A DNA stretch of 41,577 nt from Streptomonospora alba. Its GTDB lineage: Bacteria; Actinomycetota; Actinomycetes; Streptosporangiales; Streptosporangiaceae. Each line of letters opens with the position of its first letter. The first letter of the stretch is position 1. A program made the position numbers and the translations under genes. Shown here one piece after another: positions 39,807 to 41,136 of the stretch. The DNA lies in the NCBI RefSeq assembly GCF_000826685.1, contig NZ_JROO01000065.1:1-41577 (forward strand). The letters run 5' to 3'. The notes below the pieces were generated by a model, which saw only the letters and a list, made by a program, of their open reading frames with translations, was not told the origin of the DNA and did not search any database.

Positions 39807-39960
39807 GGACACCTCCCCGGCGCGCGGCGCCCGGCGCGCGTGGCGGCGCCGCAGCGGTTCGCAGCGGTGTCCGTACACCCGGCGGGGCCGGCGGCGGGTG
39901 CCCGCCGGCGGGCGGACCGGACTGCGCGCTCAGGGGCGGGAGCTGGGAGACTGCTGTGTC

Positions 39961-40548
39961 GTGACCGCACAGGAGAGCAAGCAGGAGATGCGCCGGCGTC
40001 TCGTCGCGGCGCGGCGGGCGATGCCCGAACGGGAGCGCGAGGAGTCGGCCTCGGCGATCCGCGACGCGCTGGCCGCCGAGCCGCTGTTCACGACGGGCGG
40101 GACGGTCGCCGTCTACTACTCGGTGGGGACCGAGCCCGGCACCCGCAAGCTGATCGCGGCGCTGTGGAAGCGCGGTACCTACGTGCTGCTGCCGGTGTTC
40201 CTCGACAGCGGGGAGCTGGACTGGGCGGCCTATGAGGGGCCGGACAGCCTGGAGGGCGCCCGGTACGGGCTGCTGGAGCCGGCGGGCCGCCGCTACGGGC
40301 CCGACGCGGTGCGCAGGGCGGCCGCGGTGGTGTGCCCGGCGCTGGCCGTGGACGGCGCCGGACTGCGGCTGGGCCGGGGCGCCGGGTGCTACGACCGCGC
40401 GCTGTCGCGGGTGGGCCCCAACACGCTCACTCTGGCGGTGATTTACGACACAGAGCTGGTGGAGTCCGTTCCGGCCGAGCCGCACGACCGGCCCGTGGAC
40501 GGGGTGGTGACGCCCGAACGGGGGCTGCGTGTGCTCGACCGGCGGTGA
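39961..40548 (+). CDS. 5-formyltetrahydrofolate cyclo-ligase
   Basis: A 195-residue MTHFS-type enzyme that uses ATP to convert 5-formyl-THF to 5,10-methenyl-THF, returning stored folate to one-carbon metabolism. Typical segments are KQEMRRRLVAARRAM at the N-terminus, VAVYYSVGTEPGT, a PALAVDGAGLRLGRGAGCYDRAL nucleotide/folate loop (the family's GxGxGYYDR) and the C-terminal PHDRPVDGVVTPE. The GTG at 39961 was preferred to an upstream ATG at 39898 because the conserved protein begins here. It is divergent from galU and upstream of ruc, an order conserved with M. tuberculosis Rv0991c-Rv0993. Confidence 0.93.
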   Translation: MTAQESKQEMRRRLVAARRAMPEREREESASAIRDALAAEPLFTTGGTVAVYYSVGTEPGTRKLIAALWKRGTYVLLPVFLDSGELDWAAYEGPDSLEGARYGLLEPAGRRYGPDAVRRAAAVVCPALAVDGAGLRLGRGAGCYDRALSRVGPNTLTLAVIYDTELVESVPAEPHDRPVDGVVTPERGLRVLDRR

Positions 40549-40683: not shown

Positions 40684-40689
40684 TAATAT
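40684..40689 (+). promoter_or_regulatory. -10 box of the ruc promoter
   Basis: TAATAT at 40684-40689 lies directly before the CIRCE element, so bound HrcA would cover the transcription start. No clear -35 was found about 17 bp upstream. Confidence 0.5.
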
Positions 40690-40716
40690 TTGGCAGTCGA
40701 CGGGTGAGAGTGCCAA
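40690..40716 (+). promoter_or_regulatory. CIRCE element (HrcA operator) upstream of ruc
   Basis: TTGGCAGTC (40690-40698), a 9-bp spacer (40699-40707) and GAGTGCCAA (40708-40716) reproduce the 9-9-9 layout of CIRCE. The high-GC form is TTGGCACTC-N9-GAGTGCCAA, so there is one mismatch (position 7). Flanking T40689/A40717 extend the symmetry. It lies between a TAATAT box and the AAAAGGAGG ribosome site of the FmdB-family gene. Confidence 0.85.
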
Positions 40717-40728
40717 AAGGAGGACCCA

Positions 40729-41136
40729 GTGCCGACGTACCAGTACGCATGTACCGAGTGCGGCTCCGAGATGGAGGTCGTGCAGAAGTTCACCGAGGAC
40801 TCGCTGACCGACTGCCCGCAGTGCGAGGGCCGGCTGCGCAAGGTGTACTCCGCGGTGGGCATCGTCTTCAAGGGCTCGGGCTTCTACCGCACCGACAGCA
40901 ACTCCTCCTCCGACCGCTCCTCCACGGCGGCGTCCGCCTCCAGTGAGGACTCCGGCGGCTCGTCGAACGGCGAGTCGGCGTCCTCCGGCTCGGACTCCGG
41001 CTCCGGTTCGGACTCCGGTTCGGGCTCGGGTTCCTCCTCCGGCACGTCGGACTCGTCCGGCTCCGGCTCCAGCGGCGCCAAGGAGAGCAAGACTCCGGCC
41101 TCGTCCGGCGCATCCGCCGCGGCCGCCGGCAGCTGA
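40729..41136 (+). CDS. ruc: FmdB-family zinc-ribbon protein, Ruc-like redox-regulated chaperone
   Basis: A 135-residue protein. An N-terminal zinc ribbon (MPTYQYACTECG...) has Cys8, Cys11, Cys29 and Cys32 in two CxxC pairs. From about residue 55 the protein is a disordered Ser/Gly/Asp tail (SGSDSGSGSDSGSGSGSSSG). The orthologue Rv0991c of M. tuberculosis (Ruc) is a chaperone switched on by oxidation of the zinc cysteines, needs its disordered tail and belongs to the HrcA heat-shock regulon. The CIRCE at 40690-40716 supports the same control here. The start is GTG with an excellent AAAAGGAGG. Its neighbours (5-FCL, galU) match the Rv0991c locus. Confidence 0.9.
   Translation: MPTYQYACTECGSEMEVVQKFTEDSLTDCPQCEGRLRKVYSAVGIVFKGSGFYRTDSNSSSDRSSTAASASSEDSGGSSNGESASSGSDSGSGSDSGSGSGSSSGTSDSSGSGSSGAKESKTPASSGASAAAAGS

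Follow-up and report, generated by a model that had tools for sequence, protein, structure and literature searches.

A CIRCE operator with a gene-specific promoter-side base in front of the Ruc/FmdB-type gene of Streptomonospora alba and other actinomycetes

The ruc operator and the described HrcA targets

CIRCE is a 9-bp inverted repeat, TTRGCACTC-N9-GAGTGCYAA, with a 9-9-9 spacing. In Mycobacterium tuberculosis, HrcA represses groES, groEL1, groEL2, and ruc (Rv0991c), according to the available text of PMC7448276, PMC8557902, and PMC13091356, and hrcA-dnaJ2 is given as a further target in that of PMC8557902. HrcA binding and heat derepression of M. tuberculosis ruc are reported in the available text of PMC7448276, which also describes the use of SigH at a site overlapping the HrcA site, and a Ruc chaperone activity that is switched on by oxidation. 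The original prediction for the present locus had named Rv0991c as being under HrcA control, as that source indeed states. HrcA control of ruc is already known; what is new here is the breadth of the link and a kept, gene-specific deviation in the operator. In the open-licence literature we found no report of such a deviation in a ruc operator and no text bringing CIRCE together with Rv0991c, and FmdB is not mentioned among the matches listed; these are weak absences.

The window, the whole analyzed stretch of 41,577 nucleotides, is the entire contig C73 of a 5.9-Mb assembly. At 40690-40716 on the forward strand it reads TTGGCAGTC-N9-GAGTGCCAA, with the left arm at 40690-40698 and the right arm at 40708-40716; 17 of the 18 arm positions equal CIRCE, the 9-9-9 spacing is exact, and the sole departure from TTGGCACTC-N9-GAGTGCCAA is the G at 40696 (left-arm position 7), where the consensus has C. 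This is the only match with up to three mismatches in the window, and no match occurred in 100 dinucleotide-preserving shuffles. A -10-like box, TAATAT (40684-40689, forward strand), abuts the operator, and a ribosome-binding site, AAGGAGGA (40717-40724, forward strand), follows the right arm directly, both read from the letters; the GTG start codon of ruc at 40729 lies 12 nt beyond the operator end. The original prediction was thus exact in its sequence, coordinates, spacing, and single mismatch, and in placing the repeat between a -10 box and the ribosome site. A consensus scan found no full sigma-70 promoter at the operator and no -35 consensus, so that the -10 half alone is supported. A strong 5' RNA hairpin at the locus was not supported, with a z of -0.27 and 70 of 200 shuffles folding equally well.

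The ruc gene (40729-41136, forward strand) encodes an FmdB-type zinc-ribbon protein of 135 aa (Zn_ribbon_8), which scores 71.9 bits against TIGR02605, the FmdB family, at a cut-off of 31.3, and this membership bears out the small zinc-ribbon (Ruc/FmdB-type) product expected behind the operator. The residues C8, C11, C29, and C32 of the N-terminal CxxC-CxxC zinc ribbon are unchanged across 16 aligned ruc N-termini, and Ser, Gly, and Ala are abundant, by reading, in the C-terminal tail. A search of solved structures with the ruc profile gave no match at E 0.01. The upstream neighbor, a 5-formyltetrahydrofolate cyclo-ligase gene (39898-40548, forward strand; TIGR02727), is presumably separate from the operator unit. 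Past this gene, the minus strand carries galU, a Glp/MoeA-type gene, moaC, a moaB-like gene, and a RimJ-like acetyltransferase gene, the matches of the moaB-like and RimJ-like genes scoring under their models' cut-offs. Synteny with the cyclo-ligase gene, considered as proof of ruc orthology, was incomplete, being found at 15 of the 30 loci from relatives and at 14 of the 80 named loci, the latter judged with just 1 kb upstream of each.

The HrcA regulon of the source genome and the spread of the operator

The predicted control presupposes an hrcA gene, and the genome contains a single one (one PF01628 match, E 2.7e-60; an ORF of 343 aa). A genome-wide scan with the 25-base core, allowing up to three mismatches, gave 35 places against 40 for the reversed pattern used as a control; the matches with three mismatches are therefore noise. 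With up to two mismatches there are just five places, one at ruc, one at the groES-groEL (Cpn10-Cpn60) pair, two at a second groEL (Cpn60), and one at hrcA-dnaJ, and the families of the neighboring genes were confirmed as Cpn10/Cpn60, a second Cpn60, and HrcA/DnaJ. The genome scan and comparison with groES/groEL that the original prediction had proposed thus put the ruc site among these five, and the five correspond to the HrcA regulon given for M. tuberculosis in the available text of the sources. Like the CIRCEs of groES-groEL, groEL, and hrcA in the same genome, the ruc operator has the 9-9-9 repeat and near-identical arms; unlike these, which carry C at position 7, it has G there in the promoter-side arm. 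The two CIRCEs of the second groEL are 39 bp apart (L002 1501-1564; G000:C35:139261-139324), and the outer left arm is the weaker.

We found ruc in 55 of 60 relatives, one of which has two copies, and CIRCE in 55 of the 56 upstreams, with a score unequalled in 200 plain shuffles of each; the ruc upstream of G044 contains no CIRCE. Among 158 genomes of the class, ruc is present in at least 148 and HrcA in at least 151, weak second FmdB matches being left out of this search and of that in the 60 relatives. The two sets combined provide 185 ruc upstreams, of which 154 have a CIRCE at a score of at least 14 of 18; 153 of these score at least 15, and the one at 14, in G105, is doubtful. The operator end lies a median of 24 nt from the start codon, and 60 nt or less in 142 of the 154. 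The conservation of the inverted repeat upstream of orthologues, on which the original prediction had staked itself, therefore held. Furthermore, CIRCE is present at 77 of 80 named ruc loci. Of the 39 families of the class that were covered, 34 have it at ruc, so that Ruc ranks there as a standard HrcA regulon member. Outside the class it was found at two of 25 ruc upstreams, both from one genus, after 21 of the 46 non-class genomes with a match had been left out.

It is hardly credible that the repeat arose by chance or serves a regulator other than HrcA, as the shuffled windows had no match, the operator is kept in 154 of 185 upstreams, and the arms are the same as those of the groES, groEL, and hrcA sites of the source genome; no sequence sign of another regulator was found at 40690-40716.

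The conservation in the class is not universal. The 31 upstreams without CIRCE (score below 14 of 18) belong to f27 (11/11), f7 (5/5), f38 (5/5), f28 (4/11), f35 (2/3), f31 and f40 (1/2 each), and f34 and f41 (1/1 each), and, among the matches listed, HrcA is present in most of the families having a CIRCE-less ruc. In f7, f27, and f38, ruc is present with CIRCE in none of 21 upstreams, and HrcA still occurs in all three, in f27 often as a partial match only (among the matches listed).

Position 7 of the left arm at ruc and elsewhere

Of the 154 ruc sites, 89 have G at left-arm position 7, 61 have C, and four have A; at the mirror position of the right arm, the base is unchanged in 153. The deviation thus lies in the left arm in 89 sites and in the right arm in one, the ruc operator of G042 (L329, G042:C11:448672-448698), which is located 95 nt before the start and was tallied as C at position 7 despite its right-arm deviation. 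Counted by genus (n = 96), 57 have G, 35 have C, two have A, and two have both C and G. The G form was found in 14 families. Its named carriers (25 loci) include Streptomonospora, Nocardiopsis, Thermobifida, Nonomuraea, Actinomadura, Jiangella, Nocardioides, and an Acidothermus MAG, and those of the C form (52 loci) comprise all 46 Streptomyces together with Kitasatospora, Halopolyspora, and Plantactinospora. With C in 61 of 154 ruc operators and, in the separate set of named loci, in all 46 Streptomyces, the G deviation is not required. The mycobacterium-like family f6, so assigned by inference, differs in its left-arm forms, which carry C at position 7.

For comparison, hrcA loci were fetched by protein from 30 genomes, which avoids the bias of a pattern search; 28 were readable, the exceptions being G037, whose N-terminus could not be located, and G085, which was masked. 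Position 7 is C in all 28 hrcA operators, and among the ruc operators of the same 28 genomes 15 carry G and 13 carry C; the G is hence gene-specific. In the case of strict-pattern CIRCEs in the 158 genomes, 55 ruc sites are asymmetric (54 left, one right) and 48 symmetric, compared with 11 asymmetric and 339 symmetric sites elsewhere (11 of 350; Fisher 5e-31, though the sites share a common descent). Some groES sites are among the 11. The left-half mismatch is no random decay but a base common to the ruc operators of 14 families.

An HrcA operator in which G is an old inherited substitution, weakly constrained and without function, would fit the observations that the G and C forms largely track families, that healthy conserved operators exist with either form, and that a minimum of six changes between G and C is needed over the 29 of 30 rows of an HrcA tree, which is poorly resolved, with four of 26 inner branches starred. 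We nevertheless regard such a history as improbable: G occurs in none of the 28 hrcA operators of the same genomes, both forms are present within genus g76, and family f1 keeps G at position 7 in 40 of 46 sites, amid nearly random spacer positions 11-13.

Three further observations concern individual sites. The first spacer base past the left arm (40699 in the window) is G in 39 of the 46 f1 sites. In G018, two ruc copies (L044 and L062) carry unlike operators, TTAGCACTC and TTAGCAGTC, and this pair is natural material for testing the position-7 base. Away from ruc, L204 (G186:C145:10341-10399) contains two asymmetric CIRCEs, 34 bp apart and in a single orientation.

Promoter elements and a proposed set-point of ruc repression

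In 83 of the 98 genus representatives for ruc, a -10-like hexamer has its end at operator position 0-2, compared with 7.2% of shuffled upstreams (plain shuffles, as in the tests of the relatives' CIRCE and the GGAAT-type motif). With the box abutting the operator so often, position 7 may sit near the first transcribed base. The abutting box accompanies 55 of 59 G representatives and 26 of 37 C representatives, and this higher frequency at G sites favors a role of the base in the promoter. It could accordingly be proposed that the site is an HrcA operator in which the G serves the promoter as the first or second transcribed base, is tolerated by HrcA, and leaves repression untuned. In the window, TAATAT ends at 40689, which would put position 7 at the usual start distance, and the bias of 89 left-arm deviations to one in the right arm points the same way. 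However, in 13 genomes an abutting -10 box is found at both hrcA and ruc, and hrcA has C while ruc has G; geometry alone is thus no explanation, and it was rejected as the sole cause of the G. In addition, the A at position 6 would already provide a purine start. We therefore consider the promoter role a rather unlikely account, though a less remote one than functionless inheritance. A similar box comparison on loci fetched by the symmetric pattern is preselected for C.

Some ruc upstreams contain a GGAAT-N18-GTT-like motif, which we take to be the promoter motif of an ECF sigma factor (SigR/SigH-type). Among the 98 genus representatives, 12 have it ending at the operator edge, compared with 0.9% of shuffled upstreams, as do all 11 genomes of g51. 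The promoter types do not split cleanly by base, as the ECF-like motifs go with G in eight genus representatives and with C in four. The arrangement in these relatives is reminiscent of M. tuberculosis, for which the available text of PMC7448276 describes overlapping SigH and HrcA sites. Compared with M. tuberculosis ruc as described there, the present locus is alike in having an orthologous FmdB-type zinc-ribbon gene with an operator that probably lies over the promoter, of which the -10 half is supported here, and unlike in that, in place of SigH together with HrcA, no GGAAT-type promoter was detected in the ruc upstreams of the window's genus.

The explanation we favor, and think probable, is ordinary HrcA repression of ruc through a tuned half-site that gives the gene its own set-point. 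The CIRCE would overlie the ruc -10 box and the probable transcription start, and HrcA bound to it would bar RNA polymerase from the ruc promoter. Upon heat or protein stress HrcA would become inactive, and its repression of ruc would be lifted along with that of groES-groEL, the second groEL, and hrcA-dnaJ. The promoter-side arm has the conserved non-consensus position 7 and the other arm is intact, which suggests that, of the two half-sites for the HrcA dimer, one is maintained in a suboptimal form. A suboptimal half-site may in turn create a ruc-specific repression set-point, with expression leakier or earlier than that of the chaperonin operons. At this locus, binding by HrcA, induction by heat, and the altered set-point are thus predicted from sequence, as is a weaker affinity of HrcA for the G form, in line with the weaker repression that the original prediction had suggested.

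Several observations count against tuning. With a matrix built on the 28 hrcA sites, in which the G at position 7 costs 6.8 bits, the ruc operator scores 27.0 bits, compared with 26.6 (site b) and 30.9 (site a) at groEL, 30.9 at groES, and 28.4 at hrcA; it is within the range of the other CIRCEs of the genome and hence no outlier in strength. The deviation is nearly always on the promoter side, and a mere need for weakness predicts no side. The G form also goes with an abutting -10 box, as given above.

A bolder form of the tuned half-site can be put forward tentatively, at a little under an even chance: that a variant of CIRCE has been selected at ruc in many actinomycete families, its half-site held non-consensus as a built-in rheostat, by which the redox chaperone Ruc would respond at an HrcA level unlike that of the chaperonins. 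The link between HrcA and ruc, known from M. tuberculosis, is here widened to 34 of the 39 families covered in the class, and what had been supposed to be a mismatch becomes a testable idea, namely that the genes of a single heat-shock regulon may be derepressed in an order set by operator asymmetry.
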